A stretch of DNA of 64,000 nucleotides from Lachnospiraceae bacterium (GTDB lineage Bacteria > Bacillota > Clostridia > Lachnospirales > Lachnospiraceae): positions 62,001 to 126,000 of the forward strand of contig JAFVSN010000049.1 in the NCBI GenBank assembly GCA_017503735.1, read 5' to 3'. Both the position numbers and the translations under genes were made by a program. Below are positions 1,956-26,380 of this stretch, piece after piece (positions within the stretch are counted from its first letter, which is position 1; each line of letters opens with the position of its first letter). The notes beneath the pieces are model-generated. The model ran no database searches and was not told the origin of the DNA. It saw nothing but the letters and a program-made list of their open reading frames with translations.

Positions 1956-4900
1956 ATGAAGTTATGTATGGGCTGCATGGAGATGTTTGAGGATAAATTT
2001 GACATTTGCCCGTATTGTGGATACGAGGAAAACTCGTTGCCGGAAGAAGCATTTCATTTGACGCCGGGAACTGTAATTGGTGAGCGTTATATTGTAGGAA
2101 AAGTATTGGGATTTGGTGGGTTTGGTGTAACCTATATCGGCTTTGATCGGGAACTTGAGAAAAAGGTTGCAGTCAAAGAGTATCTTCCAAGTGAATTTGC
2201 GACAAGAACACTCCATCAGACAAGAGTCACCATATATGGAGGAGACAAAACAGAACAATTTGGTCTCGGCATGACGAAATTTGTGGATGAGGCAAGAAAA
2301 TTAGCAAAATTCAGTGAGGATACTGAGATTGTAAATGTCTATGATACCTTTTTGGAAAACGATACGGCATATATCATAATGGAGTACCTTGAGGGTGAAA
2401 ATCTGAAACAGTTGCTTGAGCGGAAAGGAAAGCTTCCATTAGAGGAAGCAGAGGAAATTATGATTCCTATTTACCGCTCGTTGAAAAAAATACATGATGC
2501 AGGTATTATTCACAGAGATATTGCGCCGGATAATATTTTTATTACAAAGGATGGACGGGTAAAGCTTCTTGATTTCGGAGCAGCAAGATATGCTTCGGCA
2601 ACCCATAGCAGAAGTTTGACTGTAATTTACAAGCCGGGCTATGCACCGGAAGAGCAGTATCAAAGTCGGGGGGAACAGGGGCCGTGGACGGATGTATATG
2701 CACTTTCTGCAACACTGTATAAATGTATCACCGGCATTACACCGGATACTTCGCTCGAAAGAAAGGTAAAGGATACTTTAAAGGAACCGTCTAAGCTTGG
2801 AATAGATATTCCTAAGAATAAAGAAATCGCATTGATGAATGCTTTAAACATTCAAGTTGCTTCGCGTACCAAATCCACAGAAGATTTCTTGAAAGAGTGG
2901 GAGTCAAAAAGAGAAGTTATACGAATTGTTGAAAAGATAAAGTCAGTGGATGTGGGTCGCCTTAGTAAAAAGGCAAAAGCAGGGATTATAGCAGGCATTG
3001 TTGCACTGGCAGCGGGAATTGCAGTAGTAATAGGTCTGGGTGGTGTATCTAAAATTACGGATAGTATAAAGATTGCGCAAGGAAACGTACGAGTGCCGTC
3101 GGTGGTAAACGAGCGGTTTGATGATGCAGTTATGATTACAGAGAATGCCGGTATTCATATGATGCAGGAAGATACAAAATACGATGCATTGATTGAGAAG
3201 GGCAAGGTTCTGACACAGAGTGTAGAAGCCGGCCAGCTGATGGATTCGACAAAGAGTCTTATGGTCATTGTTTCAGGCGGTATCCGGCAGATTTATGTGC
3301 CGGAGGTGATTGGAGGTAAGAAAGAGGTTGCATTGTCCACTTTGTCGCAGGAAGGTTTTACTTATCGTGTCGTAGAGGAATATTCGACCGTGGCGGTTGG
3401 TAATGTAATTCGTACGGACTATCTTGCCGGTGAGCAGTGTGACGAGGGAACTGAAATTGTAGTTTTTGTTTCGAAAGGTATAGATCCCGCAACGATTGAA
3501 GTGCCGTCTGAGGATGAAAAGCCTGTAGAGTATGAAGTTGTAGATTACTCAAATATGTCAATTGAAGAAGTCAGTTCTATTCTGGCAGAATACGGAATCT
3601 ATCTGGATTACTCCGAACAGATTGCATCGGAAACGGTAGCAAAAGATTGTATCGTCTCGCAGAAGACACCGATAGGAACAAAACTTACGATGGGCGATAC
3701 TGTAAAGGTAGTAATGAGTACCGGTATTCCGATGGTTAATGTGGGAGACCTTATCGGATGGCAATATGCAGATAGAAAAGAGGCACTTGAACAAGCCGGT
3801 TTAGTGGTGGAAAAAGGGAAAGAAGAATACAGTAATAACCGCGCGAAAGGCTTAATTCTTTTGGTAAAGACAGAATCCGGTGAGGTTGTAACAGATGGTA
3901 TTGCATTGAAAAAGGGTACGAAAATTATTTGTACGATAAGTAAAGGACCAAAGCCGGCGAATACGCCGACGTCAAAACCAACAAATACGCCGACACCGAA
4001 GCCAACGAATACGCCGAAGCCGAAGCCGACAAATACACCGAAGCCGACAAATACACCGACGCCGACAAATACACCGACGCCGGTAGTACACTATCATAGT
4101 TATAGCCCGGCAACTTGTTCAAAACCAAGAACATGCGTGTGTGGGGCAACAGAAGGTTGGGCGTTAGGCCATAACTGGACTGATGCGACGTGTAAAGATC
4201 CAAAGACCTGTACGAGATGTAAGGCAACGGAAGGAAGTGTGTTAGGCCATAACTGGATTGATGCGACGTGTAAAGATCCAAAGACCTGTACGAGATGTAG
4301 GGAAACGGAAGGAAGTGCGTTAGGTCATAACTGGACTGATGCGACATGTAAAGAACCAAAGACCTGTACGAGATGTAAGGCAACGGAAGGGAATGCGTTA
4401 GGCCATAACTGGACTGATGCGACATGTAAAGAACCAAAGACCTGTACGAGATGTAAGGCAACGGAAGGAAGTGCGTTAGGCCATAACTGGAGTGATGCGA
4501 CGTGTAAAGAACCAAAGACCTGTACGAGATGTAAGGCAACGGAAGGAAGTGCGTTAGGCCATAACTGGAATGATGCGACATGTAAAGAGCCAAAGACCTG
4601 TACGAGATGTAAGGCAACGGAAGGAAGTGCGTTAGGCCATAACTGGACTGATGCGACATGTAAAAATCCAAAGACCTGTACGAGATGTAAGGCAACGGAA
4701 GGAGGCGCGTTAGGCCATAACTGGAAAGCCGCAACATGTAAAGAACCAAAGACCTGTACAAGGTGTTGGACGACGGAAGGCAATGCACTGGGACATACGT
4801 TTACATATGGAACAGATTTAAATTGTAAAGTATGTAATGCTGTACTTGGTTATTGGAGTGATTATGGTGCTTGGAGTGCATGGCAGGATGCGAAAGTAAC

Positions 4901-5261
4901 TGCTAGTGTTAGTCGGCAGGTAGAAACGGACAATTATGTAATCGTTGGCTATGATAAAAAGACACAGTACAAGTATAGTAGATATTATGGTCATAATGGT
5001 TCGTTCTGGGTTGCATTAAGTTATAGAAGTGGATATTGCCAGACGTATGAAGATACGGGGTGGCTTGATTATCAACTTTCATGGGATAAGATATGGAGTG
5101 AACCGCAACAGAGATATAACGAAGGATTTGGTTATGGAAAGCTAGGAAATGGATACAAAATCTTCTGGTATAATCAGGAAACACGTGAAGTGGATGATTT
5201 GAATTCTCCGATATACAAAACGCAGTACAGATACAGAGATCGTCATATAATTTACTATTAA
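1956..5261 (+). CDS. Zinc-ribbon PASTA-type Ser/Thr kinase with Cys-rich tandem repeats
   Basis: 1101 aa. An N-terminal zinc ribbon (Cys4, Cys7, Cys18, Cys21) precedes a kinase domain with GFGGFG (52-57), Lys74, HRD at 186-188 and DFG near 206. A transmembrane helix lies at about 340-362. Outside are three or four PASTA-like modules (about 378-665), a Pro/Thr/Lys linker built on NTPTPKPT units, and eight near-identical 26-residue repeats with pattern HNWxDATCKxPKTCTRC. A unique aromatic-rich tail of about 155 residues closes the protein. PASTA kinases of Firmicutes sense wall fragments. The zinc ribbon and Cys repeats are not part of canonical PrkC/Stk1, so this is an accessory paralogue. An AGGAGATGA ribosome site precedes the ATG. 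Confidence 0.9.
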   Translation: MKLCMGCMEMFEDKFDICPYCGYEENSLPEEAFHLTPGTVIGERYIVGKVLGFGGFGVTYIGFDRELEKKVAVKEYLPSEFATRTLHQTRVTIYGGDKTEQFGLGMTKFVDEARKLAKFSEDTEIVNVYDTFLENDTAYIIMEYLEGENLKQLLERKGKLPLEEAEEIMIPIYRSLKKIHDAGIIHRDIAPDNIFITKDGRVKLLDFGAARYASATHSRSLTVIYKPGYAPEEQYQSRGEQGPWTDVYALSATLYKCITGITPDTSLERKVKDTLKEPSKLGIDIPKNKEIALMNALNIQVASRTKSTEDFLKEWESKREVIRIVEKIKSVDVGRLSKKAKAGIIAGIVALAAGIAVVIGLGGVSKITDSIKIAQGNVRVPSVVNERFDDAVMITENAGIHMMQEDTKYDALIEKGKVLTQSVEAGQLMDSTKSLMVIVSGGIRQIYVPEVIGGKKEVALSTLSQEGFTYRVVEEYSTVAVGNVIRTDYLAGEQCDEGTEIVVFVSKGIDPATIEVPSEDEKPVEYEVVDYSNMSIEEVSSILAEYGIYLDYSEQIASETVAKDCIVSQKTPIGTKLTMGDTVKVVMSTGIPMVNVGDLIGWQYADRKEALEQAGLVVEKGKEEYSNNRAKGLILLVKTESGEVVTDGIALKKGTKIICTISKGPKPANTPTSKPTNTPTPKPTNTPKPKPTNTPKPTNTPTPTNTPTPVVHYHSYSPATCSKPRTCVCGATEGWALGHNWTDATCKDPKTCTRCKATEGSVLGHNWIDATCKDPKTCTRCRETEGSALGHNWTDATCKEPKTCTRCKATEGNALGHNWTDATCKEPKTCTRCKATEGSALGHNWSDATCKEPKTCTRCKATEGSALGHNWNDATCKEPKTCTRCKATEGSALGHNWTDATCKNPKTCTRCKATEGGALGHNWKAATCKEPKTCTRCWTTEGNALGHTFTYGTDLNCKVCNAVLGYWSDYGAWSAWQDAKVTASVSRQVETDNYVIVGYDKKTQYKYSRYYGHNGSFWVALSYRSGYCQTYEDTGWLDYQLSWDKIWSEPQQRYNEGFGYGKLGNGYKIFWYNQETREVDDLNSPIYKTQYRYRDRHIIYY
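3955..4085 (+). repeat. Low-complexity Pro/Thr linker coding repeat
   Basis: Short direct repeats built on ACNCCGACNCCGAA-type units encode NTPTPKPT-like residues joining the PASTA region to the Cys-rich repeats. It resembles the spacer of surface proteins that cross the wall layer and is prone to slippage. Confidence 0.75.
4170..4793 (+). repeat. Eight 78-bp in-frame tandem repeats in the kinase ectodomain
   Basis: Eight consecutive 78-bp units each encode 26 residues of the type HNWTDATCKEPKTCTRC plus nine more. A degenerate 75-bp unit precedes them (4095-4169) and a decayed one follows (from 4794). Units differ mainly at residues 4, 10 and 23. Each carries three Cys. The near identity of the DNA points to recent expansion and likely copy-number variation between strains. 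Confidence 0.92.
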
Positions 5262-22816: not shown

Positions 22817-23887
22817 ATGTTAAACATCAGAATTGAGAAGACTACCAATCCGAAGCCGTTGCCGACTCCGGACAACCCGTTAAAGTTCGGTACCATTTTT
22901 ACCGACCACATGTTTATTATGAATTATGAGACCGGCAAGGGTTGGTTTGACCCGCGCGTCGTACCGTATCAGCCGATCGTTCTTGAACCGTCCGCTATGG
23001 TATTCCATTACGGTCAGGAAATGTTCGAGGGCTTAAAGGCTTACCGTGCCGATGACGGCAGAGTGCTTTTGTTCCGTCCGGATATGAATGCAAAGCGTAC
23101 CAACAACACCAACAAGAGACTGTGCATTCCGGAGCTTCCGATTGAGGATTTTGTTGAGGCGGTTAAGGCAGTTGTTAAGGTTGATGAGGCATGGGTTCCG
23201 AATAAGCCGGGTACTTCCTTGTATATTCGTCCGTTCATCATCGCAACCGACCCGTTCCTTGGTGTACGTCCGTCCGATACTTATCAGTTCATTATCATTC
23301 TTTCTCCGGTTGGTCCGTACTATCCGGAAGGTCTTAACCCGGTTAAGATTTGGATTGAGGATGACTATGTAAGAGCTGTAAAGGGAGGTATCGGTGAAGC
23401 AAAGACCGGCGGTAACTACGTAGCTTCCATGGCAGCTCAGATGAAGGCACATGACGCAGGCTATTCCCAAGTATTGTGGCTGGACGGCGTAGAGCGTAAG
23501 TATATTGAAGAAGTAGGTGCAATGAACATCTTCTTTAAGATTAACGGTACCATTGTTACTCCGATGTTAAACGGCAGTATTTTACCGGGTATCACCAGAA
23601 ACTCTGTAATTGAGCTTTGTAAAGAGTGGGGCCTCCCGGTAGAGGAGCGTCGTGTATCCGCTCAGGAGTTAGTAGACGCATACGAAGCGGGTACTTTGGA
23701 AGAAGTATTCGGTACCGGTACCGCAGCGGTTATCTCTCCGGTAGGCGCGCTTCGCTTCGGTGACCGTGTAATGCAGATCAAGGACGGTTCCATCGGTGAA
23801 TACAGCCAGAAGCTGTACGATACCATCACCGGTATTCAGCTTGGTAAGATTAAAGAAACCAAGGGCTGGGTAGTTGAGGTTAAGTAA
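22817..23887 (+). CDS. ilvE: Branched-chain amino acid aminotransferase
   Basis: 356 aa. It transfers amino groups between glutamate and 2-keto acids of Leu, Ile and Val. FHYGQEMFEGLKAYR, the PLP-lysine region GGIGEAKTGGNYVASM, and EEVGAMNIFF with GTGTAAVISPVG are diagnostic fold-type IV motifs. GAAGGAGG precedes the ATG at 22817. Codon use is strongly biased, as in highly expressed genes. A strong hairpin follows. Confidence 0.95.
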   Translation: MLNIRIEKTTNPKPLPTPDNPLKFGTIFTDHMFIMNYETGKGWFDPRVVPYQPIVLEPSAMVFHYGQEMFEGLKAYRADDGRVLLFRPDMNAKRTNNTNKRLCIPELPIEDFVEAVKAVVKVDEAWVPNKPGTSLYIRPFIIATDPFLGVRPSDTYQFIIILSPVGPYYPEGLNPVKIWIEDDYVRAVKGGIGEAKTGGNYVASMAAQMKAHDAGYSQVLWLDGVERKYIEEVGAMNIFFKINGTIVTPMLNGSILPGITRNSVIELCKEWGLPVEERRVSAQELVDAYEAGTLEEVFGTGTAAVISPVGALRFGDRVMQIKDGSIGEYSQKLYDTITGIQLGKIKETKGWVVEVK

Positions 23888-23908
23888 ATAAATTGTAATA
23901 ATTACTAT

Positions 23909-23937
23909 TTCGTCGCCACCTTATGGGTGGCGACGAA
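23909..23937 (+). terminator. Hairpin after ilvE
   Basis: A perfect 12-bp stem (23909-23920 with 23926-23937) has a 5-base loop. The T-tract is poor (AGCATAGTATT), so it may act as an RNA-stabilising end as much as a terminator. The 165 bases between it and the repeat array show no gene. Confidence 0.6.
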
Positions 23938-24102
23938 AGCATAGTATTAGGGTGTTCTGGAAACTTCTTTTTAGTAAATCTGGTTAATTTCATTTTATTT
24001 TTGCTCAGTTCGGGTGTTGATTCTCTTGGAGATTAAGAAAAATAGGGACTATGGGGAAATATATTTGGAGTACGGGAGAATTTTAAGAGTATGGCGACAA
24101 GT

Positions 24103-24516
24103 TACCATGATGTAAGGCAAACGTGGTTTTCTCATGGTACACATATTTTGTGTGGGAGCTAGGTTACCATGAGAATTCGGCGTAAGTGCTTTCTCATGGT
24201 ATGGAAAACAAGAAGATTCTCGGGTGTTACCATGAGGAACAAGGATAGGAGGGGATATCATGGTAAGAATGTAAAGTAGATTCTTAAGTTGTACCATGAA
24301 ATGATGAAAAAAGAGTTCTATCATGGTAGTGATTCAGACGTGATTGTATAAAAGTACCATGAAGAAGCAGTAAAAGTGTTCTTTCATGGTAAAGCGGAAG
24401 GAGGGAACAGATTTGTGTGCCATGAGAAATATGAAAAAAGGTGATTTCATGGTAAAAAGGAAAGGGTGTATTTTGAATGTGCCATGAAAAACGAAGAAAA
24501 GGAGATATTCATGGTA
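24103..24516. repeat. Array of seven 37-bp inverted-repeat units with 62-64 bp period
   Basis: Seven units begin at 24103, 24165, 24228, 24292, 24355, 24418 and 24480. Each is TACCATGA (TGCCATGA in the last two), 21-22 variable bases, then TCATGGTA. Units are separated by 25-26 variable bases. The 14 alternating half-sites fall every 29-34 bases, mean 31.2, about three DNA turns. Only the 8-base arms are conserved; loops are purine-rich and differ in sequence. In units 6 and 7 the arm change keeps a G-U pair in RNA. Unit 2 extends to 11 paired bases. The array ends 41 bases before the ATG of a nuclease-like gene. No matching repeats were noticed elsewhere in the window. Confidence 0.9.
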
Positions 24517-24557
24517 TAAGTTTTGTAGACAAGAAAAAAGAAAGGTTGGGGTGAACT

Positions 24558-25364
24558 ATGGACAGAGAAAGTAGATTTGAATTGGAACAGGAAAGAGATG
24601 CTTTGGTAAAACTTGTGCCAAAACTTGAGAAGGAAATTGCAAAAGCACCGGAAGGTGGGCTTGTGGTGTTAAAAGCAAAGGGGAGATATCCACAGTACTA
24701 TCTCTACACGGAAGGAGACAGAGAAAAAGGGAAGAATGGGAAATATTTGCCTAAAAAAGAAATGAAGTTTGTGCAACGTCTTGCACAAAAGCAATATGAA
24801 ATTGAAATCTTGGAATGTGCAAAGAAAAGAGCAGATGCAATCTCTGCATTTCTGAAGCAGTATCAAGAGAATGATACAGAAGCAGTTTATGAGAAGTTGT
24901 CGGAGGAGAAAAAGAAGTTGATTCTTCCTTGGTTTGAAACAGAGGAAATTTTTTTTAATAAGTGGAAAGAAAAAATGCGGGGAAGCGCAAATGAATTTCC
25001 GAAAGAAATCGAATTATATACAGAAGCCGGGGAATGTGTGCGGTCAAAGTCCGAGAAAATTTTGGCAGATGGATTCCGACGCATGGGAATTCCTTATGTC
25101 TATGAGCCGGAACTGGAGCTGGCGGACGGAAGTCGGATATATCCGGATTTTGCACTGTTACATAAAAGGAAGCGTAAGACAATTTATTTTGAACATTTCG
25201 GAATGATGGATGTTCCGGAGTATGGCATAAGAGCAATAAAGAAGATAATGAAGTATGAAGAAAACGGGTATTGGTTTGGAGATAACTTTTTATGTACCTT
25301 TGAGACATCAGAGAATCCGTTAGATATGCGAATTGTGGAAAAGATGTTGAAGCATTATTTTTGA
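24558..25364 (+). CDS. PD-(D/E)XK-like nuclease family protein downstream of repeat array
   Basis: 268 aa. The N-terminal half is helical, Lys/Glu-rich and contains YPQYYLY and GKYLPKKEMKFVQRLAQKQY. The C-terminal domain (about 155-268) shows VRSKSEKILADGFRRMGIPY, YEPELELADGS, YPDFALLHK and YFEHFGMMD. The spacing of Glu, Asp and Glu fits a PD-(D/E)XK/VSR-like nuclease core, with E-H-F in the ExK position. I recognise the family as a multi-copy hypothetical of Lachnospiraceae; its role is unknown. The gene stands alone, immediately after the inverted-repeat array, with a weak ribosome site (GGTTGGGGTG). A functional link with the array is inferred from position. Confidence 0.75.
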   Translation: MDRESRFELEQERDALVKLVPKLEKEIAKAPEGGLVVLKAKGRYPQYYLYTEGDREKGKNGKYLPKKEMKFVQRLAQKQYEIEILECAKKRADAISAFLKQYQENDTEAVYEKLSEEKKKLILPWFETEEIFFNKWKEKMRGSANEFPKEIELYTEAGECVRSKSEKILADGFRRMGIPYVYEPELELADGSRIYPDFALLHKRKRKTIYFEHFGMMDVPEYGIRAIKKIMKYEENGYWFGDNFLCTFETSENPLDMRIVEKMLKHYF

Positions 25365-25465
25365 TATGATAGACTAACAAATGAGAGATGAATTACGCTT
25401 TACCGAATAGATCATGTGCAAAATGAGAGGAAATTGACGAAAATGAGTGTACGGAGGGAAGAAGG

Positions 25466-26380
25466 ATGAACGAAGAGAAGATAATAAAACTTTGTATAAA
25501 ATGCTTTTCAGAGCAACCAAAAAACATAACCCGTTGCACCGTAGGTCATGGAAACTATGTATATATCGTAGAACTTTCGGATAGGAAAGTCGTGGTACGC
25601 TGCAGTGAGGAGATAGGAGCATATAAGGACACGATTTACTGGCTGGAGAAGCTTGAGACGATTGATATTCCTGTGCCGAGAGTACTGGAAAAAGGTGTGT
25701 ATGAAGGCTATGAATATTTGATTTTAACTTACTTTGAGGGGCAGGATATCGGTCTTGTATATACAAAGTTGACCGATGCAGAAAAACGGGAGATTGCGAA
25801 AACGGTAGTAGAGATTCAAAATAGGGTGGCGGTGCTTCCGTTAGAGCATATTTCTGCAGATTGGTCTTGGAAGGTGTCTTATGTGGAGGATAGTTTGAAT
25901 AGGTCGAAGGAGCGCATCATTGCAAACGGATGTTATTTCGAGCCGGAGAAGGTGGATCGGCTTATGGAAGTCTCAAAGGAGCCGGAGCTGGCGGAGTATT
26001 TTGAAACAATCAAGCCAGTTGCGTATCTGGATGATATCAGTACCAAAAACTTGTTAATTCATGAGGGCCGGGTAACCGGTGTGATTGATATTGACTGGAT
26101 GGGCGAGGGAGACAAACTGACCTTCGTGGCATTGACGAAAATGGCGCTTATGAATATGGGCTGTGATACGGACTATGTGACCTATTTGCTTGACGAGATG
26201 CGTTTGACGGAAATGGAGAAAAAGGCCTTTGTGTTTTATACGTTACTGTGCTGTGTGGATTTTATGGGAGAACGGGGCATGTGGTTTGGGGATAAGCAGG
26301 TGCCGGTGAGTGAAGAAATTGTGGAAACAATGAACGGGATTTATGAGAAGTTGTGGGAGGAGTATGAGACGCTGTTCTGA
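25466..26380 (+). CDS. APH-like phosphotransferase family protein
   Basis: 304 aa. A kinase-like fold of the aminoglycoside phosphotransferase type: VYIVELSDRKVVVRCSE gives the nucleotide-binding lysine/arginine region. LDDISTKNLLIHEGRVTGV followed by IDIDW corresponds to the HGDxxxxN catalytic loop and DxD magnesium site, with Leu-Asp-Asp replacing His-Gly-Asp. The substrate could be an antibiotic, a sugar amine or a small metabolite and cannot be told. GGAGGGAAG precedes the ATG. The gene after it encodes an acetyltransferase, a common pairing in resistance-like gene sets, but this is only suggestive. Confidence 0.75.
   Translation: MNEEKIIKLCIKCFSEQPKNITRCTVGHGNYVYIVELSDRKVVVRCSEEIGAYKDTIYWLEKLETIDIPVPRVLEKGVYEGYEYLILTYFEGQDIGLVYTKLTDAEKREIAKTVVEIQNRVAVLPLEHISADWSWKVSYVEDSLNRSKERIIANGCYFEPEKVDRLMEVSKEPELAEYFETIKPVAYLDDISTKNLLIHEGRVTGVIDIDWMGEGDKLTFVALTKMALMNMGCDTDYVTYLLDEMRLTEMEKKAFVFYTLLCCVDFMGERGMWFGDKQVPVSEEIVETMNGIYEKLWEEYETLF

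Follow-up and report, generated by a model that had tools for sequence, protein, structure and literature searches.

The window, a stretch of 64,000 nucleotides from a Lachnospiraceae bacterium (contig JAFVSN010000049.1, positions 62,001 to 126,000), carries a regular array of short alternating sites between an ilvE-type gene, whose product is a class IV aminotransferase according to Pfam, and the gene of a 268-aa nuclease-like protein. The array lies downstream of a terminator-like inverted repeat, which was not among the calls of the terminator scan. The features of the locus are listed in Table 1.

Table 1. Array, neighbouring gene and adjacent inverted repeat (positions in the window)
Feature	Position	Strand	Half-site starts	Basis or context
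Perfect 13-bp inverted repeat with 5-base loop, terminator-like, without T run	23908–23938			3' of ilvE-type gene
Array of 14 alternating half-sites (seven TACCATGA-N21/22-TCATGGTA units, period 62–64 bp)	24103–24516			Sequence
Unit 1	24103–24139		24103, 24132	Sequence
Unit 2	24165–24201		24165, 24194	Sequence
Unit 3, 38 bp	24228–24265		24228, 24258	Sequence
Unit 4	24292–24328		24292, 24321	Sequence
Unit 5	24355–24391		24355, 24384	Sequence
Unit 6, left site TGCCATGA	24418–24454		24418, 24447	Sequence
Unit 7, left site TGCCATGA	24480–24516		24480, 24509	Sequence
Gene of putative cognate PD-(D/E)XK-like protein, 268 aa	24558–25364	+		Profile, PADLOC, PHROGs, fold
N-terminal region, residues 1–115: helix, three short strands, long helix (predicted)	24558–24902	+		Model
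C-terminal nuclease-like domain, residues 156–268	25023–25361	+		Model, conservation

The half-sites are 8 bp long and 12 of the 14 are exact; units 6 and 7 deviate in their left site. They are separated by inserts of 21–22 and 25–26 bp, with a mean half-site step of 31.2 bp. A preliminary description of this DNA had reported 14 half-sites with a period of 62–64 bp, ending 41 bases before the ATG at 24558, and the array was re-found with exactly these properties. One detail had to be amended, as the extent originally given (24103–24557) takes in a leader at 24517–24557 that follows the array proper. The unit length of 37 bp holds for six of the seven units, unit 3 being one base longer.

The model of the 268-aa protein (pLDDT 89) contains the alpha-beta-beta-beta-alpha core of PD-(D/E)XK enzymes with the acidic triad E166/D197/E212. 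Residues E166, D197, E212 and H213 are invariant in 72/72 homologues; the lysine position of the PD-(D/E)XK motif is not kept, since position 214 varies, though H213 is invariant. The best Foldseek match was a Bax1 complex (E 1.6e-3), and the fold also resembles the catalytic domain of the homing endonuclease I-Bth0305I and TnsA, with middling Z values. PADLOC matched the C-terminus of PDC-S68. Together with PHROGs, the fold and the invariant triad, this match supports the assignment to PD-(D/E)XK-like proteins made in the preliminary description. No Pfam or NCBIfam match above the cut-off was obtained in the family members scanned.

Arrays beside homologous genes

A family profile built from 16 members matched in 51 of 120 genomes of Lachnospiraceae, some of the matches being C-terminal domains of large proteins or fragments. 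Among 398 genomes drawn from the phylum, 22 gave a match, which was near full-length in five, all of the same family; the others were partial or corresponded to the C-terminal domain of a large protein. At least 14 family matches, among the matches listed, start less than 700 bp from the first base of their contig, as is expected beside repeats. Eight plasmid records matched, all with the C-terminal part only, and three phage records, two of them C-terminal. The third, MT839528.1 (L139), is an unannotated 4.2-kb gut contig filed as a phage, which encodes a near full-length relative (92% coverage, 31% identical); no array was detected at this homologue.

The gene family is usually accompanied by an array of alternating sites. 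After removal of eight duplicate loci, a motif-blind detector found five or more sites in regular alternation in the 700 bp upstream of the gene in 42 of 65 homologues and in 0/195 shuffles, a count that overstates independence because the homologues are related. An array of at least five sites on either side was present in 47/65, and downstream alone the figure was 9/62. Control windows in other genomes held an array in 1/141 cases. Of the 246 control windows from the window's own genome, eight did, seven of them corresponding to known TACCATGA arrays and one to a coding tandem repeat. A stricter test, which required four sites with an exact 6-mer, was positive upstream in 28/55, downstream in 8/54, in coding sequence in 0/55 and in shuffles in 0/550. 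Homologues with less than 400 bp of upstream sequence (7/62 for the exact 6-mer and 7/72 for the motif-blind detector) are excluded from these ratios, and their arrays count for the periods. In a wider search run without a shuffle control, five-site chains also turned up at 2 of 15 loci that have the C-terminal domain alone, whole or in part.

The two detectors err in different ways. The exact 6-mer detector missed shorter or looser cores; the motif-blind one found more arrays and also flags ordinary tandem repeats, for example near position 4200 of the window. The reading frame at 1956–5261 of the window encodes an 1101-aa protein, serine/threonine-kinase-like from reading of its sequence, in which a 78-bp in-frame tandem repeat is present in 8.2 copies (4145–4780).

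In 35 of 45 upstream arrays the array ends 11–153 bp before the gene start, and the median distance from array to start is 72 bp, the starts being estimated from the profile match, which for the window gives 47 instead of 41. The preliminary description had tied the array to this gene family and had named homologues without an array and arrays equally frequent away from the gene family as observations against the link. The upstream, either-side and control-window counts speak for it; in part the adverse observations were also made, since for 18/65 homologues a five-site array was detected in neither of the flanking 700-bp stretches and the genus of the window has arrays far from the gene.

The periods of the arrays are close to whole numbers of helical turns. 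Among 55 arrays, 19 had periods of 51.5–54 bp, one of 56, 21 of 62–64 and 14 of 72–75 bp. The vector length at 10.5 bp was 0.88 with a phase of 0.16 bp, a value found in 0/200,000 uniform draws, although such draws, too, treat related homologues as independent. When periods of 34–104 bp were allowed, 56 arrays fell at 42 (1), 52–54 (19), 62–64 (20), 72–75 (13) and 83.5–86 bp (3) and none between, that is, at four to eight turns of 10.5 bp. The array at 56 bp (L086) moved to 42 bp with more sites in this wider search; its five-turn class was kept in the kinship test below. Sites within one array are not independent because of tandem duplication, and in 31/55 arrays the inserts are at least 60% alike. 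Since perfect tandem repeats could mimic alternation, and the motif-blind detector flags them, the periods were retested on the 24/55 arrays with inserts less than 60% alike; the vector length was 0.91 (0/100,000). The whole-turn periods support the earlier proposal that the sites lie on one face of the DNA.

Motifs differ between lineages and are unrelated between distant ones. As judged by sequence comparison, motif and period follow the kinship of the proteins. The same period class was shared by 8/8 protein pairs with at least 60% identity, by 94% of 31 pairs at 50–60% and by 28% of 724 pairs at 30–40%. Motif similarity likewise climbs with protein identity, and Mantel tests gave 0/5,000 for period and for motif (48 arrays, with L016 and L024, near copies of the window, omitted). 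The period class has to change 10 times over a 70-protein tree, compared with 22.1 times after shuffling, and 0/200 shuffles were as low. When each protein region was correlated with the motif, no one region was singled out. Within a single genome, paralogues go with different motifs; examples are G106, G293, G074, G076 and the window's genome, where the paralogue is accompanied by ACCAA/TTGGT sites with a 53-bp period.

Arrays with the core TACCAT occur in at least six of the ten genomes of the window's genus, among the matches listed. Five of these hold a gene of the TACCAT clade (at least 52% identity; in G003 the frame is broken), and in the sixth, G001, the array follows an ilvE-type gene and lies 0.2 kb from the contig end. 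The genus genomes without TACCAT arrays have either no gene (G002, G006) or distant ones only (G004, G008). Genome G005, where the own gene stands by TACCATT sites and the array at rplA reads TACCATGA, fits co-evolution less well. In G003 (MAG RGIG7215), where the nuclease-like gene is broken (L024, 4720–5525), 2/14 array sites read TACCCTGA.

Dispersed arrays in the genome and genus

In the window's own genome the pattern TACCATGA-N15-30-TCATGGTA has 40 occurrences on each strand reading, which are clustered, and the reversed control has none; the array in the window is therefore not due to chance. Eight multi-unit arrays (C9, C11, C25, C32, C35, C37, C46 and the window's C56) and a lone unit (C38) account for the 40 units, so that seven multi-unit TACCATGA arrays are located on contigs other than that of the window. 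The genome also contains at least two TACCAT arrays of a related kind. Exact units were found in 4/61 genomes (the own genome and 60 relatives), all four among the ten of the window's genus, with 40 units in the own genome (G000), 41 in G007, 8 in G003 and 2 in G005. A scan of the GTDB contig collection, from which the window's own record is possibly excluded, returned 12 stretches with the two-unit pattern, all from three Lachnospiraceae bacterium MAGs. Genome G009 has TACCATT(G) arrays at four dispersed places in addition to that at the gene. Two arrays of two species (C50 of G000 and C37 of G007; L104 3572–3910 and L105 3546–3886) have TACCATT sites on one strand and TACCATGA on the other; their left neighbours differ, and exceptions to the alternation are one in ten or none.

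The arrays occupy the gene junctions rplA/rplJ, pheT/sigma factor, PadR-like regulator/sigma factor, ilvE/268-aa gene and others, where the gene names, except for the ilvE-type one (class IV aminotransferase), come from reading the open reading frames. The flanking genes differ from place to place, and a single common neighbour gene for the dispersed arrays was rejected. No promoter was consistently placed at a fixed position beside the arrays, and the dispersed arrays have no constant relation to promoter-like sequences. In the rplA–rplJ gaps without a TACCATGA array (G001, G002, G004, G006 and G009; G008 was left out, as the stretch could not be delimited), the exact 6-mer detector found no array of another motif.

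Eight dispersed arrays have a common plan of 12 sites over 393–395 bp, with steps of about 29-33-30-33-30-76-30-33-30-33-29, which is nearly a mirror image about a centre of 67–69 bp. The within-unit step is 29 or 30 bp in 117/117 cases at 20 loci, and the between-unit step is 32–34 bp in 88 cases and longer in 11. This regularity is partly built in, as imperfect sites were admitted only at steps of 28–31 or 33–34 bp, exact sites being unrestricted. After subtraction of the normal gap, the longer gaps in TACCATGA arrays amount to 4.0–4.2 turns (nine cases), 3.0 turns (one) and 1.1 turns (one) at 10.5 bp per turn. At one locus (L023) a single step links two sites of the same orientation. The central gap is nearly constant at 75–77 bp, start to start, in L005, L006, L012, L015, L017–L020 and L022, and no common sequence was apparent in these gaps by eye. 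Positional information is restricted to T(A/G)CCATGA; two bases further on, A is favoured (169/237).

Dispersed sites in the window's genus are kept, and the intervening DNA drifts. The junctions rplA/rplJ, pheT/sigma factor, PadR-like/sigma factor and ilvE/268-aa gene and the C25 locus hold arrays in sister species. At these five loci, eight comparisons between species pairs, which have species in common and are thus not independent, gave 731/758 identical site positions (96%) against 1361/2208 insert positions (62%), the flanks giving 3879/5290; 115 columns with conflicting site labels were set aside. An alignment-free comparison of two arrays of equal length gave 92/96 identical positions in sites and 171/298 in inserts. 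Whole units have been gained or lost between sister species. The site and insert identities, and the recurrence of arrays at 42/65 homologues, bear out the view of the preliminary description that this is a maintained system.

Other motifs were looked for away from their genes in the same manner. The TTACATA motif of G133 forms an array at its own gene only, plus one lone unit; no site of the G016 motif TTACGTACTACA was found away from its gene, nor was any array of the ACCAA/TTGGT motif of the own-genome paralogue. The array beside the gene is thus the general feature, and the trans arrays look like something added in the TACCAT lineage; the sample of three other motifs is small, and the trans arrays may be special to one genus.

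Possible functions and related systems

Taken together, the sequence comparisons make it rather probable that the array is a set of double-stranded DNA binding sites for the adjacent protein or its close copies. The neighbouring protein is the likeliest reader, since motif and period follow the kinship of its own gene; a different protein with the same inheritance could also be the binder. Whole-turn periods, free inserts and conserved half-sites would be expected where a protein binds cooperatively along one face of double-stranded DNA. Dimers or oligomers of the protein would each read a half-site, possibly being joined via the long N-terminal helix, and neighbouring half-sites would face one side of the helix, allowing cooperative binding along about 400 bp. 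The typical position of the array just before the gene suggests autoregulation or restraint of the nuclease, and self-control of the gene is probably the role of the array. When bound, it would limit the expression of its own gene and tether a potentially harmful nuclease to a fixed platform. In the window's genus the additional trans arrays might be docking places that act on the chromosome, in local organisation or regulation, or else products of nuclease-driven spread. As the dispersed arrays have no fixed promoter relation, chromosome organisation or enzyme-driven spread is as likely for them as gene control.

A broader interpretation is put forward tentatively. The gene, with its coiled coil and PD-(D/E)XK domain, and its own helically quantised array may constitute a new class of system, present several times per genome, in which the protein and the sequence and pitch of its array diverge jointly to give mutually private pairs. 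The array would restrain the nuclease as a DNA antitoxin or a docking rail, and in one genus the rail would have been copied to about ten chromosomal places, where it would now be under selection.

The strongest rival to binding by the adjacent protein, which we nevertheless regard as unlikely, is a spread similar to that of REP/RAYT elements, where a domesticated or selfish nuclease would cut at or near the sites, copying and lengthening the arrays, so that the dispersed arrays would be its offspring and not a host device. According to PMC2817692, in REP/BIME–RAYT systems the enzyme gene is flanked by short alternating repeats that co-evolve with the enzyme and have dispersed copies. Here, too, alternating cognate repeats flank the gene in 47/65 homologues, the motif co-evolves and dispersed copies exist in the genus. 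The gain and loss of whole units between sister species, the near-identical units in many arrays, the invariant acidic triad and the middling fold likeness to I-Bth0305I and TnsA are also consistent with spread. However, there are about ten arrays per genome and not hundreds, the three other motifs have no dispersed arrays, the dispersed sites persist at orthologous places as the DNA around them drifts, and helical quantisation is not required for such a process. REP/RAYT is the nearest analogue, but the enzyme and the repeat differ. RAYTs are IS200/IS605-type tyrosine enzymes, and the protein considered here is PD-(D/E)XK-like, with no Pfam match to IS200/IS605 tyrosine (HUH) enzymes. A REP is a palindrome of 20–40 bp whose head is conserved, for example as GT(A/G)G, whereas the half-sites described here have about 5–12 bp, longer inserts, whole-turn spacing and motifs that are unrelated between distant lineages. 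The dispersal known from REP/BIME–RAYT is seen here for TACCAT in the window's genus and for none of the three other motifs.

The existence of arrays far from the gene would also suit a different host DNA-binding protein, the nuclease-like gene being a common neighbour or target of that regulator. We consider this quite unlikely, because a shared regulator would not make motif and period follow the kinship of the gene, nor would it give paralogue-specific motifs.

It is very unlikely that the array works as transcribed RNA, that is, as a row of hairpins, a small-RNA precursor or a guide array of the CRISPR or TIGR-Tas type. The transcript does fold better than shuffles (z −7.0, 0/100); this was discarded as evidence for an RNA role, since such a value is what an array of inverted repeats gives. 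The minimum-energy fold mostly pairs arms of different units. In three orthologous cis arrays, read in the orientation of the gene, the left arm alone was changed in 7 units (TGCCATGA, with a G-U pair kept) and the right alone in 3, as an RNA hairpin would permit; in the dispersed arrays, for which the reading strand is arbitrary, the right arm alone was changed in 11 units and the left alone in 4. The quantisation of the period to helical turns, the drift of the inserts at orthologous loci and the near-identity of units in many arrays, which leaves no guide diversity, argue against RNA, and no Rfam match was found in 23800–25500 at E up to 1. The small RNAs or hairpins entertained in the preliminary description are accordingly not supported as the main reading.

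The CRISPR-like and TIGR-like readings fit poorly in anatomy as well. CRISPR arrays have direct repeats, unique spacers and cas genes, whereas the sites here are inverted and 8 bp long, the inserts are near-identical in many arrays, and PADLOC gave no Cas match on 16 family members. TIGR-Tas arrays consist of edge and loop repeats with spacers of about 9 nt in 36-nt units. They likewise vary in motif between loci and flank a gene, and a second kind has palindromic stem-loops (PMC12045711). The resemblance lies in short two-part arrays next to a gene, but here the sites are inverted and the units have 42–86 bp. The Tas proteins have a Nop domain, in some cases along with HNH or RuvC; Pfam gave no Nop match in 16 members of the present family, a search that may miss a diverged Nop. 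A likeness of the fold to TasH was tied with SerRS, LidA and Rad50 and represents a generic coiled coil.

Chance or decaying satellite DNA, which would accord with the near-identical tandem units of some arrays and with the score of the coding tandem repeat, is of negligible probability in view of the reversed, shuffle, coding and control-window controls, the site against insert identities and the quantised periods of diverged arrays, in agreement with the preliminary description.

Multi-site operators of the Lrp type have sites on one helix face about three turns apart and serve autoregulation. In contrast to them, the present half-sites alternate, stand in rows of up to 21 and have lineage-private motifs, and we know of no regulator of this multi-site kind with a nuclease domain. 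The PD-(D/E)XK endonucleases Bax1, I-Bth0305I, TnsA and PADLOC PDC-S68 are proteins other than the 268-aa protein, and to our knowledge none of them has cognate site arrays of such a kind. No description of this gene–array system was among the papers listed by an open-access library, which has no preprints and lacks most subscription journals. The category is called new because REP/RAYT shares the logic and not the enzyme class or repeat anatomy, and because TIGR-Tas has no matching unit and no Nop match was seen in the family members scanned.

If the proposed pairing is true, the family offers dozens of natural protein–DNA pairs with co-diverged recognition sequence and geometry, from which it could be learned how a nuclease-fold protein changes its site. 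The arrays at 4, 5, 6, 7 and 8 turns, with none found between, would be clean evolutionary evidence for helical phasing in bacteria. The pairing would also raise the question of chromosome organisation, nuclease self-control or the spreading of repeats in one of the major gut families, and suggest a role for a widespread gene family whose scanned members have no Pfam or NCBIfam match above the cut-off.

A further arrangement was observed at three loci (L128, L130 and L134), where a stand-alone N-terminal domain of about 100 aa is encoded immediately ahead of a PF12281 nucleotidyltransferase gene, in the manner of a toxin–antitoxin pair. The wider search gave no array chain at L128 and L134; at L130, four alternating TTTAACC-type sites were recognised upstream by eye, and the wider search returned a five-site chain.
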